DNA from: Candidatus Desantisbacteria bacterium CG1_02_38_46
Lineage (GTDB): Bacteria; Desantisbacteria; UBA1551; UBA1559
Assembly: GCA_001871015.1 (NCBI GenBank)
Contig: MNUO01000059.1
Span: 1-7,563, forward strand
Reading direction: 5' to 3'
Length of the DNA: 7,563 nucleotides
Under the pieces are notes generated by a model. The model was not told the origin of the DNA and did not search any database. It saw only the letters and a program-made list of their open reading frames with translations. Below are positions 1 to 7,563 of the stretch, piece after piece. Numbering within the stretch: position 1 is the first letter of the stretch; each line of letters starts with the position of its first letter. A program made the translations under genes and the position numbers.

Positions 1-323
1 GCGCCATACTTATTCCTTTAGCAGCACGGTTTACCGAATTTGCAAATGCAAACAGGGCATGGTGGACTATAGTTACTGACGGCGGAAAATCGAATAGCCC
101 GAATGCAGGAATTCCTGAGGCTGCATATGCTGGAGCACTCGGGATTCAATTAGGCGGGACAAATTTTTACGGCGGTAAAAAGAGTGAAAAACCATTGATT
201 GGAATAGCATTGAAAAACAGGGATGTGAAAGACATTTCTCGGGCAATAAATTTTATGTATATAGTCTCCATACTTACCCTGTTGGCTGGAGTTATAGTGG
301 GATGGATTGTTTGTGGAGGATAA
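1..323 (+). CDS. cbiB: Adenosylcobinamide-phosphate synthase CbiB/CobD, C-terminal part (5' end outside window)
   Basis: The last 106 codons read in frame from base 3 to the TAA at 321-323. The family is an inner-membrane enzyme that joins adenosylcobyric acid to (R)-1-amino-2-propanol or its phosphate, giving adenosylcobinamide (phosphate), late in cobalamin synthesis. The translation carries the family's conserved C-terminal block: TDGGKSNSPNAGIPEAAYAG, followed by ALGIQLGGTNFYGG and KPLIG. A final hydrophobic segment (FMYIVSILTLLAGVIVGWIV) fits a C-terminal membrane helix. About two thirds of the usual roughly 300-residue protein lies upstream of the window. A Shine-Dalgarno-like GGAGG at the very end of the gene serves the next ORF, which starts one base after the stop. 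The recognition is by the SPNAGxPEAA-AGALG-QLGG motif. Whether it acts in full de novo synthesis or only salvage cannot be told here. Confidence 0.93.
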   Translation, partial: AILIPLAARFTEFANANRAWWTIVTDGGKSNSPNAGIPEAAYAGALGIQLGGTNFYGGKKSEKPLIGIALKNRDVKDISRAINFMYIVSILTLLAGVIVGWIVCGG

Positions 324-324
324 A

Positions 325-414
325 ATGTCAAAGTTGATAGATGAAATTTTAAATGTGAATTGTAAGGCTACTGGAATAGGGAGTCTGCCACAGCGGAATG
401 GGGTTGTTAGATGA
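325..414 (+). pseudogene. 29-codon ORF, probable truncated gene start (possibly a MetE/UroD-like methyltransferase remnant)
   Basis: An ATG with a good upstream GGAGG (about 314-318) opens a 29-residue reading frame starting MSKLIDEILN. Its TGA overlaps the ATG of btuF (ATGA), so translation could be handed from cbiB through this ORF to btuF. The stretch CKATGIGSLP resembles the N-terminal motif (ATGIGSLPH) of the cobalamin-independent methionine synthase/uroporphyrinogen-decarboxylase-like methyltransferase family. Family members are several hundred residues long, so this would be only the start, with the remainder deleted. A decayed cobT start is a weaker alternative. It could also be a genuine short coupling peptide. 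Identification of the parent family is tentative; the ORF, its ribosome site and the overlap are directly visible. Confidence 0.45.
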
Positions 415-1283
415 AAAAGATAGTGAAAGAATTATTGAACTTTGCTCCAATTTTTCTTGCGAGTTTAATCTTTTTTGATTCAACTGGAATGAAGGTTGAG
501 ATTACAAAGGTACCACAGAGAATTATCTCCTTAAGTCCTTCAATTACAGAAAGTTTATTTGAACTTGGCATAGGAGATAGAATTGTTGGAGTTACCATAT
601 ATTGCAATCGTCCACCAGAAGCAAAATCAAAAGAAAAAGTGGGAACACTTCTGAATGTAAATTTAGAAAAAATTATAACTCTAAAACCGGATATAATATT
701 TATAGGGGAAGAAGGAAATAGACCGGAGATTATAAGAAAATTGAGGAAAGTAAGTATTAATGTTTTTGCATTTGGAAAAGTTGAGAATTTTAAAAAGGCA
801 TGCCAGGATTTTCAAATGCTTGGCGAAATTGCGGGTAGAAAAAATAGAGCAAAAAATATTGTTAAAGAAATAACTAAAAAAATGGAAGAAATTAAGAAAA
901 GAATTAAAAATATGCCTCCTGTAAAAGTTTTTTGTCAACTTGGTTCAGACCCAATTGTAACAGCAGGAAAAGGAACTTTTATTGATGAATTGATTCATAT
1001 AGCTGGTGGAATAAATATTGCACACAATATTACTCAAAGATATGCAAGATTTAGCAGGGAGCAAGTGATTAAAAAAAATCCTGATGTAATAATTATTGTG
1101 ACAATGGGTGAGTATACAGAGAAAGAGAAAAAGACCTGGTATAAATTTAAAGAATTACCTGCTGTAAAAAATAATAGAATCTATATAATTGATGCAGACT
1201 TAGTCTGCCGTCCAGCGCCAACAGTTTTAATTGAGGGATTGAAAGAGATTGCAAAATGTATTCATCAAGAGGTATTTAAATGA
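411..1283 (+). CDS. btuF: Cobalamin ABC transporter periplasmic substrate-binding protein (BtuF-like)
   Basis: A 290-residue protein of the helical-backbone metal/corrinoid-binding family (Peripla_BP_2 type). It would capture corrinoids in the periplasm and deliver them to BtuCD. The N-terminus has basic residues (MKK) and then a hydrophobic stretch at about residues 8-22, a signal sequence or anchor; there is no lipobox cysteine. The mature part begins with the typical DSTGMKVEITKVPQRIISLS, then PSITESLFELGIGDRIVGVT. It continues with LEKIITLKPDIIF and ends with the family-typical RPAPTVLIEGLKEIAKCIH. The ATG overlaps the stop of the small ORF before it, and its own TGA overlaps the ATG of the radical SAM gene. 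The local ribosome site is weak, so coupling is likely. The family also includes siderophore and haem binders; the B12 assignment rests mainly on the surrounding corrinoid genes. Confidence 0.88.
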   Translation: MKKIVKELLNFAPIFLASLIFFDSTGMKVEITKVPQRIISLSPSITESLFELGIGDRIVGVTIYCNRPPEAKSKEKVGTLLNVNLEKIITLKPDIIFIGEEGNRPEIIRKLRKVSINVFAFGKVENFKKACQDFQMLGEIAGRKNRAKNIVKEITKKMEEIKKRIKNMPPVKVFCQLGSDPIVTAGKGTFIDELIHIAGGINIAHNITQRYARFSREQVIKKNPDVIIIVTMGEYTEKEKKTWYKFKELPAVKNNRIYIIDADLVCRPAPTVLIEGLKEIAKCIHQEVFK

Positions 1284-2137
1284 GAAAGGTCTCTTTTTTA
1301 ACCTGTGAAATAAATCCAAATAAAAAAATAAAAGTCAATTTTTCTGGTTGCAACTGGAATTGTAAGGGGTGTTTTGCAATTGCAAAAAATGAAATAGGAA
1401 GAGAACTTTCTGTTAATGCCCTTGTTGATTTAATTATAAAATCTTCAAATTTAATCTATGGAAAATTGATTGAAGATATTCAGGCAACTGGTGGTGAACC
1501 TGCATTAAATTCTAATTATTTATTATCTTTTATAAAACAATTAAGAAAAATTGGTGTTAGAAAAATTGGAATTTCAACAAATGGACATTTACTTGATGAA
1601 AAACTTATAAGTGAATTAAGTAATTTACATGTGGATTATATAAAAATTGATTTAAAAGCGTATTCTGATGAAATTCATAAATGGTATACCGGGTTTAGCA
1701 ATGAAAATGTATTAAAAGCTGTAAGATTATTGCATAAACATAACTTAAATTTTTATGTTAGAACTATTTTTATTCCAGATATAATGGAATTTTCTGAAAT
1801 AGAAAAAATTGCAAAATTTTTAAGCAGTGTTGATAGAAATATACAATATCGCCTTTATCAATTTACTCCCCAGTATCTGGATAATAAAATTTCACGTGCT
1901 CCAGGAGAAGATGAAATGCTAAAAAATTTTGAAATAGCAAAGAAATATCTTAAAAATGTCCATTATTTTGTTTATAGCAAGAAAATAGGTTTTAGCCAGG
2001 ATTATAAATTTGTTGAAGTAAGAGCAAATGAAGTATTAGAAAATTTTAAAAAAATTGATAAAATCTCTAAAAAAATCGATAAAAACTGGGATATTAAATA
2101 TTTTACCTTTAACCAGATTCTCTCCTTAAACAGATGA
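1280..2137 (+). CDS. Radical SAM enzyme, pyruvate-formate-lyase-activase-like, embedded in the B12 transporter operon
   Basis: A 285-residue radical SAM protein. The iron-sulfur cluster motif CNWNCKGC (Cys24, Cys28, Cys31; CxxxCxxC) is intact. The SAM-binding TGGEP motif follows at residues 70-74, then GISTNGHL and DYIKIDLKAY, as in PFL-activase-like and AmmeMemoRadiSam-like members. The length suits a single radical SAM domain. I see no B12-binding domain and no additional CxxC-rich cluster domain. Start and stop overlap btuF and btuC by four bases each, which ties its translation to the transporter. The gene looks visibly richer in A/T than btuD or btuB. Family members generate a 5'-deoxyadenosyl radical to activate a glycyl-radical enzyme or modify a substrate. 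The actual substrate here is unknown; a role in corrinoid metabolism is inferred only from position. Confidence 0.85.
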   Translation: MRKVSFLTCEINPNKKIKVNFSGCNWNCKGCFAIAKNEIGRELSVNALVDLIIKSSNLIYGKLIEDIQATGGEPALNSNYLLSFIKQLRKIGVRKIGISTNGHLLDEKLISELSNLHVDYIKIDLKAYSDEIHKWYTGFSNENVLKAVRLLHKHNLNFYVRTIFIPDIMEFSEIEKIAKFLSSVDRNIQYRLYQFTPQYLDNKISRAPGEDEMLKNFEIAKKYLKNVHYFVYSKKIGFSQDYKFVEVRANEVLENFKKIDKISKKIDKNWDIKYFTFNQILSLNR

Positions 2138-3132
2138 AAAAGATAAATTTTTTCATTTTTTTAATTGTGATCTTAATAGTAAGTTTAATTTTTTCAATAA
2201 TGTTTGGCGGTGTAAGCATTTCTTTTAAAGATGTAATTTATACTATTTTTCATCCAAAAATTGTTGATTCTAATCAGACAATAATCTGGAAAATAAGAAT
2301 TCCAAGGGTCATACTCGGTCTATTTATTGGTGCAGGGCTTGCTGTAAGCGGCTGTGTTTTTCAGGGGATGCTTCGTAATCCACTTGCTGATCCATATACA
2401 CTCGGCGTTTCTGGAGGAGCAGCATTGGGTGCAAGTATTGGAATTATATTTAGATTTGAAAAATTCCTGGGTTATTATGGTCTTCCACTTTTTGCATTTA
2501 TTGGTGCTTTTATTTCTATTTCGCTTATTTATTTACTTGCACTTAGAAGGAATCTTTCAGTTACTACTTTGATTCTTATTGGTGTAGTCTTAAGTTTTTT
2601 ATTCTCAGCAATCGTAACATTAATACTATCAGTCTCTGACCCACAGAAAGTTCATCTTACAATTATCTGGTTGATGGGGGACCTGTCATTAGCGGATTCG
2701 GGATTAATTTTGCCAGTAAGTTTGTTTGTTATCCCTGGTATTTTAATTCTTTTTTTGTTCTCAAGGGATATGGACTTACTTACACTCGGCGAAGAAAAAG
2801 CAAGACACCTCGGTGTAGATGTGAAATTGATTAGGCGAGTTTTATTTTTATTTTCATCAATTATAACAGGTGCCTGCGTTTCAAGTTCTGGAATAATAGG
2901 TTTTGTTGGGTTGATGGTTCCCCATTTCATAAGGGGATTTACAGGCCCTGGGCACAGGATATTATTACCTGCTTCTGCTATAGGGGGAGCAATTCTTTTA
3001 GTGCTTGCTGATACACTGGCGCGCACGATAATTTCTCCGCTGGAACTCCCTGTAGGAGTTATAACAGGGATATTTGGCGGAATATTTTTCTTAATCTTTT
3101 TTCTTCGCTCAAAGCGAAAGGAAATATTTTAA
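2134..3132 (+). CDS. btuC: Cobalamin ABC transporter permease (BtuC, FecCD family)
   Basis: A 332-residue polytopic inner-membrane protein, the usual length for FecCD/BtuC permeases with about ten membrane helices; it dimerises and binds two BtuD subunits. Diagnostic stretches are RIPRVILGLFIGAGLAVSG at residues 55-73, QGMLRNPLADPYTLGVSGGA at 77-96, the cytoplasmic coupling segment LGEEKARHLGV at 218-228, GFVGLMVPHFIR at 256-267, and the terminal PVGVITGIFGGIFFL at 306-320. The ATG overlaps the stop of the radical SAM gene. The gene is complete and ends in a basic tail (RSKRKEIF). It is separated from its partner btuD by a palindromic repeat instead of being directly joined. A siderophore-type permease is the main alternative, and context favours B12. 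Confidence 0.92.
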   Translation: MKKINFFIFLIVILIVSLIFSIMFGGVSISFKDVIYTIFHPKIVDSNQTIIWKIRIPRVILGLFIGAGLAVSGCVFQGMLRNPLADPYTLGVSGGAALGASIGIIFRFEKFLGYYGLPLFAFIGAFISISLIYLLALRRNLSVTTLILIGVVLSFLFSAIVTLILSVSDPQKVHLTIIWLMGDLSLADSGLILPVSLFVIPGILILFLFSRDMDLLTLGEEKARHLGVDVKLIRRVLFLFSSIITGACVSSSGIIGFVGLMVPHFIRGFTGPGHRILLPASAIGGAILLVLADTLARTIISPLELPVGVITGIFGGIFFLIFFLRSKRKEIF

Positions 3133-3234: not shown

Positions 3235-4026
3235 ATGAATTTACTTGAAGTTAGAGATTTGGTTTGTGGTTATGATGGAGAAGAAGTCATTAAAGGACTT
3301 TCTTTTTCCGTTCAGAGCGGTGAATTCTTAGGAATTTTAGGTCCAAATGGTGCAGGTAAAACTACCCTTTTCCGTGCAATTACAGGTGTTTTGAAGCACT
3401 CCAGTGGAAAAATATATTATCAAGAAAAGGAACTCTTAGAAATTCCTGCAAGAGAGATTGCCAGAGAAATTGCTGTTCTTCCTCAGATACTTGAAATTTC
3501 TTTTTCATTTTCTGTTGAAGAATTTGTTAGAATGGGGCGTTTTTCTCATCGTGGAAGGCTTGAAGGTTTTAGAAAAGAAGATGAAATTGCAGTTGAGAAA
3601 GCAATGGAAACGACAGGAATTTTAAATTTGAAATCAAGATCTGTAAATCAGCTGAGCGGTGGAGAAAGACAGCGAGTGCTTCTTGCCCAGGCTCTTGCGC
3701 AGGAGCCCAGTCTCTTACTTCTGGATGAGCCAACTGCACATCTGGATATATCTCACCAGGTGGAAATATGCGATTTGATAAAAAATCTCAACAGGGAAAA
3801 ATCACTTACGGTAATAATGGTTTTGCACGACCTGAATTTAGCCAGTGATTATTGTGACCAGTTGATTTTAATTAACAAAGGAAAACTATATAAAATAGGC
3901 CCTCCGGAAGAAGTTTTAACTTATCAGATTATTGAGGAGGTTTATAAGACAACCGTAGTGGTAAGGCAGAACCCGGTTTCTTTCAGGCCACATATATTCC
4001 TCGTTCCTAAAGAAAGGATTACTTAA
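3235..4026 (+). CDS. btuD: Cobalamin ABC transporter ATP-binding protein (BtuD)
   Basis: A 263-residue ABC ATPase that powers the BtuCD importer at the cytoplasmic face of the inner membrane. All nucleotide-binding motifs are intact: Walker A GPNGAGKTT (residues 36-44), Q-loop VLPQ (Gln84), signature LSGGERQR (140-147), Walker B LLLLDEPT (160-167), D-loop AHLD (168-171) and H-loop histidine His198 in VLHDLN. The order and the FecE/BtuD-like region around FVRMGRFSHRG match importers of iron chelates and B12. The ATG lies just downstream of the palindromic repeat with a modest AGGTGA ribosome site at about 3226-3231. It is the last gene before the B12-regulated leader of btuB, and an independent promoter starts in the gap after it. 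Assignment to B12 instead of siderophores depends on context. Confidence 0.93.
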   Translation: MNLLEVRDLVCGYDGEEVIKGLSFSVQSGEFLGILGPNGAGKTTLFRAITGVLKHSSGKIYYQEKELLEIPAREIAREIAVLPQILEISFSFSVEEFVRMGRFSHRGRLEGFRKEDEIAVEKAMETTGILNLKSRSVNQLSGGERQRVLLAQALAQEPSLLLLDEPTAHLDISHQVEICDLIKNLNREKSLTVIMVLHDLNLASDYCDQLILINKGKLYKIGPPEEVLTYQIIEEVYKTTVVVRQNPVSFRPHIFLVPKERIT

Positions 4027-4177: not shown

Positions 4178-4243
4178 ATTAAAATTTGTTCTTTAAATTT
4201 TTTGGAAACTCGTGTAAATCGAGTGCGGTTTTGCCACTGCGAT
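4178..4243 (+). repeat. Direct repeat, left copy: orphan 5' half of a cobalamin riboswitch
   Basis: These 66 bases match 4731-4796 at 63 positions. They contain the riboswitch P1 5' strand, the GGAA, the ACTCG/CGAGT hairpin and a degraded form of the TGCGG..CCGCCACTG core. The differences are TT in place of CC (4231-4232) and C in place of T (4240). The CC-to-TT change falls in a core position that cobalamin riboswitches conserve. The copy stops after GCCACTGCGAT and runs straight into AAGGAGG, the antitoxin ribosome site. It has no B12-box and no 3' P1 strand, so it should not bind cobalamin. It looks like the copy released from selection. Confidence 0.93.
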
Positions 4244-4260: not shown

Positions 4261-4473
4261 ATGAATGTTCAATTTTATAAAATTGCAGAAGAAGTAAAAA
4301 ATTTAGATTTAGTAGACAAAGTTTTTTTAAAAGAGTTATTTGAAAAATGGATTATAGAAGAAAAAAGGGAATTGATAAAAAAACATGCAGAAGAAAGTTT
4401 AAATGAATACAAAAGTGGTAAGATAAAATTTTCTTCTGTAAAAAATTTGAAAAAAGAAATTTATGAGCATTAA
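4261..4473 (+). CDS. Type II antitoxin partner of the RelE/YafQ-like toxin
   Basis: A 70-residue, charged, mainly helical protein with an acidic N-terminal half and a C-terminal segment around residues 50-70 (YKSGKIKFSSVKNLKKEIYEH) of the kind that wraps around RelE-fold toxins in short antitoxins. The ATG has a strong AAGGAGG ribosome site (4244-4250) created exactly where the half-riboswitch repeat ends. Its last 11 bases overlap the toxin gene, the normal arrangement for co-translation of such pairs. There is no obvious N-terminal DNA-binding domain such as a full helix-turn-helix or ribbon-helix-helix, so autorepression is uncertain. The assignment comes from gene order, size, overlap and the well-recognised toxin; the exact antitoxin family is not certain. 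The gene is extremely A/T-rich compared with btuB. Confidence 0.8.
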   Translation: MNVQFYKIAEEVKNLDLVDKVFLKELFEKWIIEEKRELIKKHAEESLNEYKSGKIKFSSVKNLKKEIYEH

Positions 4474-4735
4474 AATAGGTTTTAGTTCTTCTTTTAAAAA
4501 AACCTTTAAGAAAAAAACATATAAAAATAAAAACTTGGAACAAAAATTTTGGATAAATTTAGAAAGATTTGAAAATAATCCTTTTGAATCATCTTTAAAA
4601 ACTCATAAATTAAGTGGAAAACTTGAAGGATTGTGGAGTTTTGTTGTAGAATATGATTGTCGAGTTATTTTTAAATTTTTAGAAGAAAATAAAGTTTTAC
4701 TTATAGATATCGGTAGTCATGATGAAGTTTATTAA
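4463..4735 (+). CDS. RelE/ParE-superfamily toxin, YafQ-like putative mRNA interferase
   Basis: A 90-residue basic protein with the compact RelE fold signature: a lysine-rich N-terminal helical part (FKKTFKKKTYKNKN), then THKLSGKLEGLWSFVVEYDC and RVIFKFLEENKVLLIDIGSH, ending DEVY. In YafQ-type toxins the corresponding histidines, the Asp/Arg of the central strands and a C-terminal aromatic contribute to ribosome-dependent mRNA cleavage. Here His48, Trp58, Asp65, Arg67, His86 and Tyr90 are candidates by position, so the toxin looks intact. Its start overlaps the antitoxin by 11 bases. Its last codon and stop lie inside the right-hand 66-bp repeat, so the 5' end of the riboswitch begins exactly where the toxin ends. 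It could be a growth-arrest toxin or an addiction element keeping this locus. Activity is inferred from family resemblance. Confidence 0.9.
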   Translation: MSIKIGFSSSFKKTFKKKTYKNKNLEQKFWINLERFENNPFESSLKTHKLSGKLEGLWSFVVEYDCRVIFKFLEENKVLLIDIGSHDEVY

Positions 4736-4796
4736 AATTTGTTCTTTAAATTTTTTGGAAACTCGTGTAAATCGAGTGCGGTTCCGCCACTGTGAT
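4731..4796 (+). repeat. Direct repeat, right copy: 5' half of the intact cobalamin riboswitch
   Basis: This is the second copy of the 66-bp repeat at 4178-4243, offset by 553 bases with three substitutions. Here it keeps the conserved TTCCGCCACTGTGAT core and continues into the rest of a complete aptamer. The repeat begins two bases before the toxin stop codon and ends in the middle of the aptamer. Sixty-six bases is far too long for a typical insertion-sequence target duplication, which points to segmental duplication or recombination. Confidence 0.93.
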
Positions 4797-4932
4797 TGGG
4801 GACGAAAGCTGCAATATGCCACTTGTAGGCGGGGACACTATTCTACCACCTTCGGTCGGTAAATAGGGACAGTCCCCTAAAGCAAGGAAGGCGCAGCAAG
4901 TAGGTTTGAACTCATAAGCCAGAAGACAGATT
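4736..4932 (+). ncRNA. Cobalamin riboswitch 1 (long form)
   Basis: The sequence follows the cobalamin aptamer in order. P1 5' strand AATTTGTT (4736-4743) pairs with GACAGATT (4925-4932), using two G-U pairs. Then come GGAA, hairpin ACTCG-TGTAAAT-CGAGT, the core TGCGGTTCCGCCACTGTGAT, GGGGACGAAAGC, and TGCAATATGCCACTT. After a long peripheral hairpin come AAGGAAGGCGCAGC, where GCAGC pairs back to GCTGC at about 4808-4812, and the B12 box AAGCCAGAAGACAG. All main conserved blocks are present, so it should bind a cobalamin and respond to it. A hairpin ACCTT/AAGGT (4943-4958) and an intrinsic terminator (4984-5020) follow, suggesting transcriptional control. Repression of btuB by B12 is the usual outcome in this family. 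Confidence 0.93.
4831..4877 (+). repeat. REP-like hairpin inside the peripheral arm of riboswitch 1
   Basis: Forty-seven bases fold almost completely. GGGGAC (4831-4836) pairs with GTCCCC (4872-4877), CTATT (4838-4842) with AATAG (4862-4866), and TACCACC with GGT-C-GGTA around a TTC loop, with one bulge and a small internal loop. This fills a position, between ATGCCACTT and AAGGAAGG, where cobalamin riboswitches normally have only a short loop. The TAGGGACAGTCCCC part recurs twice downstream of btuB, which marks it as a dispersed repeat motif and not as aptamer core. Confidence 0.7.
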
Positions 4933-4983
4933 CTTCTATGAGACCTTCGAGAAAAGGTAGGGAAGGATTTTTATGAAAGAATT

Positions 4984-5020
4984 TCCCAGATTTCCCTTTT
5001 TCAGGAGTTCTGGGATTTTT
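4984..5020 (+). terminator. Intrinsic terminator / expression platform of riboswitch 1
   Basis: TCCCAGA (4984-4990) pairs with TCTGGGA (5009-5015). An inner TCC/GGA stem lies across a 2x2 internal loop, and TTTTTC then ATTTTT follow directly. A preceding GGGAA (4960-4964) can pair with TTCCC (4983-4987) and would compete with the terminator stem, so it is a candidate antiterminator strand. The position, about 50 bases after the B12 box, is right for a ligand-controlled terminator. Confidence 0.72.
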
Positions 5021-5044
5021 CATTTTTAGAAAGGAGGTGGTGCC

Positions 5045-5056
5045 ATGCCAGAATAA
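5045..5056 (+). other. Three-codon ORF (Met-Pro-Glu) with a strong ribosome site between the two riboswitches
   Basis: AAAGGAGG at 5030-5037, with an eight-base gap to the ATG, precedes ATG CCA GAA TAA. The ribosome site is better than most in this window, yet the frame closes after three codons. It could be a regulatory upstream ORF, a remnant of a lost gene start, or chance. A short stem TTGGTT/AACCAA (5067-5072 with 5082-5087) follows before riboswitch 2. No protein function is claimed. Confidence 0.3.
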
Positions 5057-5095
5057 GAAGATGAGGTTGGTTTCTGGGAAGAACCAAATAGCCGG

Positions 5096-5207
5096 ATAGG
5101 TAAAGGAAATCCTGGTGACCTGGCTACCGCAGGCAGGGATTCCAGGTGCTGCCCCGCAACGGTAATCTCCCGATGTAACATCGTGATGAGCCCGGACGAT
5201 TGCCTAT
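5096..5207 (+). ncRNA. Cobalamin riboswitch 2 (short form)
   Basis: A second complete but shorter aptamer. ATAGGTAA (5096-5103) pairs with TTGCCTAT (5200-5207). AAGGAAATCCTGGTGA and GATTCCAGG form the P4/P5 region. The core GTGCTGCCCCGCAACGGTAA is very close to the cobalamin riboswitch consensus. A small hairpin CGATG-TAA-CATCG (5171-5183) follows, then the B12-box equivalent GATGAGCCCGGACGATTGCC. It lacks the long P8-P12-type domain of riboswitch 1, as in short (class II-like) cobalamin riboswitches. The GTGA..GATT loop is split by about 19 extra bases containing CCTG/CAGG. No T-run hairpin follows; the btuB ribosome site is about 20 bases downstream, so control of translation is the likely output. 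Confidence 0.87.
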
Positions 5208-5224
5208 TTTGGAAAGTATTCTCG

Positions 5225-5237: not shown

Positions 5238-7256
5238 GTGGATACTAAAAAAATTGGAAGTTTGTGGTTCACGGTTCTGTTTCTGATTTGTTTTTTTGTT
5301 GTGCATGGTTTTGCTTGGGAGCAGGAGTTTGAACTTGAAAGGATTGTAGTGACAGCGACAAAAGGGCAGGAAAGAGATGTGCAATTTATACCTGCGAATA
5401 TCACTGTCATCACATCTGAGGATATTGCTAAGTCAAATGCCAGGACAATACCAGACTTATTGAAATCTGAAGTCGGACTGGTCGTTCGAGATATTCTCGG
5501 CAATGGTGGTCAAGTAAGTGTTGATATCCGTGGATTTGGTGAAGCAGCAGCAATGAACTGCACAATTCTTATTGATGGGCGAAGGATAAATAACATTGAT
5601 ATGGCTAATCCAGACCTCACCCAGATTTCACTTGCTCAGGTGGAAAGGATTGAGGTTTTAAGAGGTGGTGCAGGTGTTCTTTATGGAAATAATGCTGTTG
5701 GAGGTGTGATTAATATTATAACAAAGAAACCAGAAAAGAAGCGATTGAATGCAAGCATATCTTTTAATGCTTTTAATGGAACAGACTTTCGTTTTGGAGT
5801 TGAAGATGTGATAGAAAAATTTTCTTATTCCATAAGCGGAAGCCATAGATTCAGTGGAGGTTATCGCCTGCACAGCGAGATGAATGCAAGCGATGTGGGG
5901 GTGAGAATTGGAGCAGAAGAAAAAGATTCTGTTGTAGGCTGGGATTTGAACGTAGGTTTTCATCGGGATAATTACCAATTTCCTGGTTCTGTAAATCAGA
6001 CAGATTGGGACTCCGGTTATTACTGGAAGACTTATACTCCCTATGATAAAGGAGAATCTACGGATTGGTATTCGAGATTAGTAGTGAAAAAATCCATCCG
6101 AGATTTAAAAACAGAGACAGAAATTTCTCTGCGTAACCGAGATGCAAAATCCTTTTTTGATTCCTGGGGTCTCTTCGACAGGCGATATACCAGGGTTCTT
6201 GGTGCTGGAGAAAAAATTTCCTATAATCTGTTTGGAGTGGATTTGTTAGGCGGGGTAGAATATTATAGTAATTCTTACAACATATCCCCCGATACTCGTA
6301 CGGGAGATCCAACGGCGGTAAATGATGACCAGAGATTGAATCGCTATTCAACAGCAGGGTACTTTCAGGTGATAACACCAACTTTGTTTGACAGGGTGTT
6401 TCTTGAACTTGGAGGAAGAATTGAAGGTGTAAATCAACATTTTGTAGTAGAGAAAACTTCCTCTGATACATTTATTCCAGAAGTTCTGGATGCTCTTTCT
6501 GCTGGTTTAAGTCTGAAAATCTTAGAAGGAACAAATGCCTATGCAAGATGGGCAAAGTCATTTCGACTGCCAACAACAGATGAATACTACACCGGGATGA
6601 AGTATCTTTCCTTAAAGCCACAGAAAAGTCAAGATGTTGAATTGGGAGTGAAATATACTGGCAAAAAAATTGGCGCAAATTTTTCTTTATTCTTGATGCG
6701 AACACAGGATGAACTTTATTTTGATAATGGAGCATACGAGAACAAAAACTATCCTGACCCGACAGTCCGAATGGGTGGAGAATTGCAGGTTAAAGCGCGG
6801 TTGGCTAAATTCGCATCAGTTTCTCTGGGATATACACTTACAGACGCAAGGTTTGACACCGGTGGCACTGGTGTGTATGCCGGAAAGGAAATTCCACTTG
6901 TTCCAAGGCATAAAGGGGATATTAAACTGCTTCTAAATCTGCCACTGGATATAAATCTCGGTGCCAATTGTACGCTGGTTTCAGACAGGTGGTTTGGAAA
7001 TGAGTATCAGCAGACATCTGAAAAAAGGAGACTCCATGGCTATACTGTAGTAGATTTAAAGGTCTCCCGCCAGTTTGAAAACATTCGCTTGTTTGGAGCG
7101 ATTGATAACATAGGTGATATAAAATATGCAGAGTCTGGTTTTACTTGGGATGAATATGATTATACAACATGGCCATTTACTTTTCTTGGCCATCGCTATG
7201 GTTATTATCCTTCACCTGTGCGAAACTTCAGTGTGGGGATGGAAGTGAATATGTAA
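5238..7256 (+). CDS. btuB: TonB-dependent outer-membrane cobalamin receptor (BtuB-like)
   Basis: A 672-residue TonB-dependent receptor, typical length for a 22-strand barrel with an N-terminal plug; it brings corrinoids across the outer membrane using TonB energy. Residues 1-26 are a signal peptide (KK, then LWFTVLFLICFFVV, cleavage likely after HGFA). A TonB box-like ERIVVTAT follows at 34-41. The plug has PANITVITSEDI, DIRGFGE at 96-102 and the hallmark IEVLRGGAGVLYGNNAVGGV at 138-157, then INIIT. The rest alternates strands and loops and ends with RNFSVGMEVNM, a barrel-closing strand with an unusual final Met instead of Phe or Trp. Two cobalamin riboswitches in its leader and B12 genes on both sides support corrinoids as ligand. 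It uses GTG as start. The gene is less A/T-rich than the TA and radical SAM genes. Confidence 0.94.
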   Translation: MDTKKIGSLWFTVLFLICFFVVHGFAWEQEFELERIVVTATKGQERDVQFIPANITVITSEDIAKSNARTIPDLLKSEVGLVVRDILGNGGQVSVDIRGFGEAAAMNCTILIDGRRINNIDMANPDLTQISLAQVERIEVLRGGAGVLYGNNAVGGVINIITKKPEKKRLNASISFNAFNGTDFRFGVEDVIEKFSYSISGSHRFSGGYRLHSEMNASDVGVRIGAEEKDSVVGWDLNVGFHRDNYQFPGSVNQTDWDSGYYWKTYTPYDKGESTDWYSRLVVKKSIRDLKTETEISLRNRDAKSFFDSWGLFDRRYTRVLGAGEKISYNLFGVDLLGGVEYYSNSYNISPDTRTGDPTAVNDDQRLNRYSTAGYFQVITPTLFDRVFLELGGRIEGVNQHFVVEKTSSDTFIPEVLDALSAGLSLKILEGTNAYARWAKSFRLPTTDEYYTGMKYLSLKPQKSQDVELGVKYTGKKIGANFSLFLMRTQDELYFDNGAYENKNYPDPTVRMGGELQVKARLAKFASVSLGYTLTDARFDTGGTGVYAGKEIPLVPRHKGDIKLLLNLPLDINLGANCTLVSDRWFGNEYQQTSEKRRLHGYTVVDLKVSRQFENIRLFGAIDNIGDIKYAESGFTWDEYDYTTWPFTFLGHRYGYYPSPVRNFSVGMEVNM

Positions 7257-7352: not shown

Positions 7353-7563
7353 ATGAAAAAAGGATTGATTCAAATATATACCGGGGATGGAAAAGGAAAG
7401 ACAACTGCTGCAATTGGACAGATAGTCCGTGCACTCGGGCACAATTTGAAAGTATGCTATATTTCCTTTTTTAAGGACCCTGCAAAATGGAGTTATGGAG
7501 AGATGGGAATCTTGAGAAAATGGGGAGTGGATGTTTACCATTTTGCTACCAAGCACCCATGTT
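7353..7563 (+). CDS. cobA: Corrinoid adenosyltransferase CobA/BtuR, N-terminal part (3' end outside window)
   Basis: The first 70 codons of a CobA/CobO/BtuR-type cob(I)yrinic acid a,c-diamide adenosyltransferase, which transfers the adenosyl group of ATP to Co(I) corrinoids in the cytoplasm. The start MKKGLIQIYTGDGKGKTTAA contains the family's modified P-loop GDGKGKTT (residues 11-18), followed by RALGHNLKVCYISFFKDP and the HFATKHPC region. The ATG follows GAAGGAG (7341-7347) at good spacing and lies just after the hairpin block. Placement behind btuB makes sense: imported cobalamin or cobinamide must be adenosylated for use as coenzyme. It is probably cotranscribed with btuB and therefore under the same riboswitches, unless the intervening hairpins stop transcription. 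The rest of the protein (families are usually near 170-200 residues) lies beyond the window. Confidence 0.95.
   Translation, partial: MKKGLIQIYTGDGKGKTTAAIGQIVRALGHNLKVCYISFFKDPAKWSYGEMGILRKWGVDVYHFATKHPC

Follow-up and report, generated by a model that had tools for sequence, protein, structure and literature searches.

A family of radical SAM proteins encoded within corrinoid import and salvage loci of bacteria and archaea

We identified rSAM-A, a new family that belongs to the known radical SAM superfamily and has a well-supported genomic context: every genome found to carry the gene encodes it among corrinoid import or salvage genes. We consider it about 60% probable that rSAM-A is a single-cluster radical SAM enzyme with a pyruvate-formate-lyase (PFL) activase fold that acts in the cytoplasm on imported corrinoids, in an accessory salvage or remodelling step. 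Most bacteria that require B12 are unable to make it and reuse what they find, and rSAM-A is probably an oxygen-independent step in the recycling of scavenged B12 relatives. An unnamed radical SAM family that always occurs in corrinoid salvage operons, beside the unexplained DUF71-B12, points to an unrecognised anaerobic step, for which rSAM-A is a direct candidate common to archaea and bacteria. The literature that we searched on radical SAM proteins with corrinoid salvage, transport or BtuF holds no description of the family; subscription journals were mostly outside this search.

The importer locus

The stretch of DNA analysed (hereafter the window) corresponds to a single contig of 7.6 kb (G000:C52) from a bacterial draft genome (G000; 1.73 Mb, 88% complete). 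Its neighbourhood is a corrinoid locus. On the plus strand are, in order, the end of cbiB, btuF, the radical SAM gene, btuC, btuD, a toxin-antitoxin-like pair, cobalamin riboswitch elements, a TonB receptor gene, and the start of cobA. Pfam searches confirmed the neighbours as Peripla_BP_2, FecCD, ABC_tran, a TonB receptor, the C-terminus of CobD_CbiB, and the start of CobA. Specifically, the contig start cuts CbiB (adenosylcobinamide-phosphate synthase), of which the C-terminal part is encoded (3..323; PF03186, E 7.6e-18). A BtuF-like periplasmic corrinoid-binding protein (411..1283; PF01497, E 5e-42) is followed by rSAM-A (1280..2137, 285 aa, ATG start) and a BtuC-like permease of the FecCD family (2134..3132; PF01032, E 6.6e-96). 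After a gap of ~100 bp, and on the same strand as btuC, comes a BtuD-like ATPase (3235..4026) whose best NCBIfam match is a corrinoid ABC transporter ATPase, below the cut-off of that family. A cobalamin riboswitch (4709..4948; RF00174, 55.4 bits) and a second cobalamin-riboswitch-like element (5051..5221; 29.6 bits, narrowly under the gathering score of 31.5) are apparently arranged in tandem (4709-5221) ahead of the BtuB-like TonB-dependent receptor identified by profile matches (5238..7256), the second element being just upstream of it. The contig ends within the CobA/BtuR corrinoid adenosyltransferase gene (7353..7562; PF02572, E 4.6e-21).

An earlier reading of the window from sequence alone described a complete radical SAM protein, with Cys24/28/31 and TGGEP, between btuF and btuC, and the motif and Pfam results agree. 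It also described the gene as translationally fused into the operon. There are indeed ATGA overlaps on both sides, between the btuF stop at 1283 and the rSAM-A start (TTTAAATGAGA) and between the rSAM-A stop and the btuC start at 2134 (CAGATGAAA), but the products are separate proteins whose start and stop codons overlap, not a fusion. The chance of a 285-codon open frame at this composition is ~2e-13.

Other features of this genome were also observed. Direct repeats of 66 nt that are 95% identical (window positions 4178-4243 and 4731-4796) correspond to the 5' part of a cobalamin riboswitch. They enclose an ORF and a RelE/YafQ-like toxin gene (4261-4735), so that the toxin-antitoxin-like pair has a partial riboswitch copy on one side and a full copy on the other. 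A 29-codon ORF ahead of btuF (324-413; MSKLIDEILNVNCKATGIGSLPQRNGVVR) resembles by eye the beginning of a methionine synthase of the core-MetE/COG0620 type and may be what is left of a gene; the rSAM-A operons of G061 and G022 adjoin a complete gene of this type. Elsewhere in the genome (G000:C115:5086-8358), NrdD is interrupted by ~1.5 kb within a single 1321-aa open frame, which suggests an intein.

Protein family and predicted fold

The window protein belongs to the radical SAM superfamily based on its match to the Pfam Radical_SAM profile (PF04055; E 5.7e-24, 85.6 bits versus a cut-off of 29.5). The CxxxCxxC motif of the [4Fe-4S] cluster (C24/C28/C31, CNWNCKGC; 1349..1372, plus strand) is invariant in relatives, and the GGEP motif for SAM binding (residues 71-74; 1490..1501, plus strand) is invariant in rSAM-A. 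The sequence TNG occurs at residues 100-102. No NCBIfam equivalog cut-off was reached for NrdG2 (TIGR02495; 85.5 versus 131 bits), YjjW (TIGR04041; 85.3 versus 250), PFLA (59.6 versus 232), or AmmeMemoRadiSam (TIGR04337; 38.8 versus 220), the first two being the best matches, and no curated family names rSAM-A.

Based on predicted models, the fold is of the PFL-activase type. Over residues 3-229, comparison with PFL-activating enzyme gave Z ~18 and rmsd ~3, with 212-214 residues aligned. The mean pLDDT of the AlphaFold models is only ~76, and placement is poor for residues 24-41 and for the C-terminal part. Alignment and structure comparison place this C-terminal part (residues 230-285; 1967..2134, plus strand) beyond the PFL-AE-like core. 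It is present in all complete rSAM-A proteins, missing from PflA and from most members of a second family, rSAM-B, and lacks conserved extra Cys residues. By Pfam, the window protein matches only PF04055 and PF13353, with no SPASM or auxiliary-cluster domain, B12-binding domain, or peptide-recognition domain.

Phylogenetic analysis places rSAM-A (support 100/99) and rSAM-B (100/100) together in a supported clade (96/91). PflA and ten other related (COG1180-type) radical SAM proteins, included as outgroups, all fall outside it. rSAM-B is likewise unnamed and PflA-like, with a conserved DCH motif, and 7/7 rSAM-B genes are in corrinoid import or salvage loci (L009 4246-5010, L010 8810-9574, L031 9713-10432, L038 10820-11539, L056 6994-7824, L057 6486-7292, and L088 5644-6372). 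A further related radical SAM gene in an archaeal genome (G392; L055 1267-2277), beside an ABC ATPase and a FecCD-like permease, is outside the rSAM-A/B clade.

Genomic context

All seven rSAM-A genes lie inside corrinoid import or salvage loci, the opposite of the outcome (homologs mostly outside such loci) that the sequence-only reading had named as counting against it. Its suggestion of a corrinoid-processing role gains further from CbiZ (adenosylcobinamide amidohydrolase, by Pfam), which adjoins rSAM-A in five carriers. DUF71-B12, with DUF71 assigned by PF01902, is beside CbiZ in three of the five: G061, G102 and, almost certainly, G022, where two contig ends are involved.

In G102 the locus reads cobU-cobT-cobS-AsnB-like-DUF71-CbiZ-rSAM-A-btuF-cobA-btuC-btuD. 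In G239, DUF71 directly precedes rSAM-A (cobU-cobT-cobS-AsnB-like-DUF71-rSAM-A); here rSAM-A is divided between two contig ends, and the contig with the other half carries btuF-btuC-btuD-TonB receptor. Cobalamin riboswitches head the collinear runs containing rSAM-A in both genomes, ~150-170 bp before cobU. The G061 locus (cobA-DUF71-CbiZ-rSAM-A-btuF-rSAM-B-btuF-TonB receptor) and the G022 locus (CbiZ-rSAM-A-btuF-TrpD-ADH-rSAM-B-btuF-btuC-btuD-cobU) encode both radical SAM families, and the G022 CbiZ continues on a second contig beside DUF71 and cobA. The Nitrososphaeria loci (L009 and L010) comprise btuF, rSAM-A-CbiZ, rSAM-B-btuC-btuD, and cobD, with cbiP also in L009. Coding ends are tight, with TAA abutting ATG in G102 and overlaps in G061 and the window.

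In G022, the corrinoid operon is interrupted by genes for a TrpD-like phosphoribosyltransferase and a Zn-dependent dehydrogenase (L031 10450-12626), a possible alternative base-activating pair. They occur in G022 only, and we rejected them as obligatory partners of rSAM-A. Strict dependence on CbiZ was also rejected. No CbiZ was detected in G239 or in the window genome (88% complete), and no DUF71 was detected in the latter, so the link between rSAM-A and CbiZ is not universal. CbiZ and DUF71-B12 are side by side in five bacterial genomes (L031, L038, L039, L085, and L089), which runs against the strict anti-correlation of the two reported for bacteria (PMC3541065).

The phylum of G102 provides a natural comparison. 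The slot between DUF71 and btuF is occupied by CbiZ and rSAM-A in G102, rSAM-A in G239, CbiZ in G792, and rSAM-B in G793, and is empty in G368, which is of the same genus as G102. This substitution pattern suggests that CbiZ, rSAM-A, and rSAM-B are alternative tools for one task, as exchangeable or complementary parts. Similarly, G059, from the genus of G061, has DUF71-CbiZ-btuF without rSAM-A. The sequence-only reading had held that close relatives with the importer, without the enzyme, and with identical cobamide use would speak against a corrinoid role; close relatives with the importer and without rSAM-A do exist (G368, G059, and G792).

Distribution and possible lateral transfer

At high stringency, rSAM-A is rare. 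It was detected in 4/386 bacterial genomes, in 2/400 genomes sampled around an archaeal carrier, and in 2/9 and 2/6 genomes of two small phyla. Seven genomes, belonging to three bacterial phyla and one archaeal class, support the family, with a complete sequence from each of six and a split sequence from G239. The carriers are the window genome; G022 and G061, which share a phylum; G102 and G239, from a second phylum; and two Nitrososphaeria (G392 and G393, with loci L009 and L010). A contig scan with the window protein alone recovered only two relatives, owing to the narrowness of the exact peptide patterns on which it relies.

The rSAM-A proteins of Nitrososphaeria share 62-63% identity with those of two bacterial phyla, and CbiZ shares 61-66%, compared with only 36-41% between archaea and bacteria for the BtuC and BtuD encoded beside them. 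These values suggest, as the simplest reading, that rSAM-A travelled as a cassette, mostly along with CbiZ, and became linked to importers already resident. Alternatively, rSAM-A and CbiZ may be under stronger constraint than the importer.

Proposed role and alternative explanations

The best reading is that rSAM-A acts together with, or in place of, CbiZ/DUF71. Its family, cluster motif, and fold, its corrinoid operon in every carrier, its coupling to CbiZ, and the riboswitch-headed operon in two relatives were computed; an activity on a corrinoid or corrinoid-fragment substrate, and the position attacked, are predicted as follows. BtuFCD would import a cobamide, cobinamide, or analogue. The [4Fe-4S] cluster of rSAM-A would cleave SAM to give a 5'-deoxyadenosyl radical. 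This radical may abstract a hydrogen from the corrinoid just imported, for which the nucleotide loop or lower ligand is the likeliest site, or alternatively from a product released by CbiZ. CbiB, CobU, CobT, and CobS could then rebuild the molecule. To our knowledge, no reaction of B12 salvage is known to proceed by 5'-deoxyadenosyl radical chemistry. Several points weigh against a salvage or remodelling role: relatives manage without rSAM-A, neither CbiZ nor DUF71 was detected in the window genome, the family comprises few sequences, and an enzyme that modifies a protein of transport or salvage would show an identical gene context. More specifically, rSAM-A and rSAM-B might be radical-based remodelling enzymes whose chemistry cleaves or rearranges scavenged cobamides at the nucleotide loop or lower ligand, and which archaea and bacteria have traded, together with CbiZ, as a cassette. 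We regard this tentative extension as possible but doubtful. A role as an alternative corrinoid adenosyltransferase, combining the radical with Co(II), was set aside because cobA is present in the same loci.

It is rather unlikely that rSAM-A instead makes or alters a lower-ligand base for CobT (by, for example, methylation, ring formation, or demethylation) and leaves the corrinoid itself untouched. The presence of cobT, cobS, and cobU in the same operon in G102 and G239 is consistent with such a function, as is the TrpD-like phosphoribosyltransferase and Zn alcohol dehydrogenase pair between rSAM-A and rSAM-B in G022, but this pair is missing from the sister locus in G061. By position, rSAM-A is coupled with CbiZ and btuF rather than with cobT, and no lower-ligand synthesis family is among the NCBIfam matches listed.

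Modification of a protein, such as BtuF, CbiZ, or another operon product, by an enzyme resembling RiPP maturases would also fit the operon link, and some loci have two btuF and two radical SAM genes. We consider this unlikely, given the lack of a SPASM or auxiliary-cluster domain or a peptide-recognition domain match in the window protein. In addition, no small precursor ORF was seen to be kept beside rSAM-A among the ORFs covered in the relatives (those above 80-90 aa), and rSAM-A is conserved although its would-be target BtuF has diverged to ~30% identity between archaea and bacteria.

The sequence-only reading had also proposed activation of a B12-independent glycyl-radical enzyme (GRE). 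On this view, a PflA/NrdG-type activase would be in the btu operon by chance and would switch on a B12-independent enzyme, such as a class III RNR, when B12 is scarce. The fold predicted from models is that of PFL-AE, the best family matches, both under cut-off, are the activases NrdG2 and YjjW, the CxGC motif resembles that of NrdG, and NrdD is encoded in G000, G022, and G061. If rSAM-A activates a GRE, then carriers should encode one. However, the Gly_radical domain (PF01228) was detected in 0/7 carriers (drafts, 82-96% complete where stated), whereas it scores in E. coli, B. ihuae, and L. lactis, which served as controls. The PF13597 search gave no NRDD in G102 or G239, and the archaeal NRDD matches end at profile position 530/562, before the part with the glycine-radical site. 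A GRE gene is beside rSAM-A in no carrier, and a different radical SAM gene adjoins nrdD in G022. Given the lack of a PFL-type domain, the patchy NRDD, and the other radical SAM gene at the G022 nrdD, all in draft genomes, activation of a GRE appears improbable, and the PF01228 and PF13597 searches of all carriers led us to reject it as the main reading.

Finally, a mobile passenger gene with no corrinoid role is very improbable: rSAM-A in the window is very AT-rich (25% GC versus 34-41%, about 38%, in nine other stretches of the genome), has a toxin-antitoxin pair nearby, and is patchily distributed, but the gene is in frame, always in the same operon type in four distant lineages, with close or overlapping coding ends and intact active-site residues.

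Comparison with known systems

PflA (PDB 3c8f/8fo0) has a predicted fold match over residues 3-229 of rSAM-A, and the CxxxCxxC, GGE, TNG, and DLK...DEIH motifs of the two align. The two share only ~21% identity, and rSAM-A has G rather than an aromatic residue before the third Cys, S99 at the position of PflA D104 (which we take to be a cation ligand), an extra C-terminal part, and no GRE partner. The NrdG2 and YjjW activases are the top NCBIfam matches (~85 bits each), but rSAM-A is well under their curated cut-offs of 131 and 250 bits. The AmmeMemoRadiSam radical SAM enzyme (TIGR04337) has a related radical SAM core (38.8 bits); rSAM-A is far under the cut-off of 220, and the AmmeMemoRadiSam partner proteins were not seen in rSAM-A loci.

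The salvage genes CbiZ and DUF71-B12 share operons with rSAM-A, but rSAM-A is an unrelated protein, with predicted radical chemistry versus hydrolysis or ATP use; the role of DUF71-B12 is itself predicted and unproven (PMC3541065). The remodelling enzymes named in PMC7733943 are only CbiZ, CbiR, and some CobS proteins, and known remodelling works by hydrolysis (CbiZ and CbiR) or through CobS. Unlike rSAM-A, the Akkermansia remodelling enzyme CbiR is an AP-endonuclease-2 TIM-barrel hydrolase, not a radical SAM protein. Nevertheless, CbiR was found via corrinoid-gene context and provides a precedent for the recruitment of an unrelated fold to cobamide remodelling (PMC7733943).
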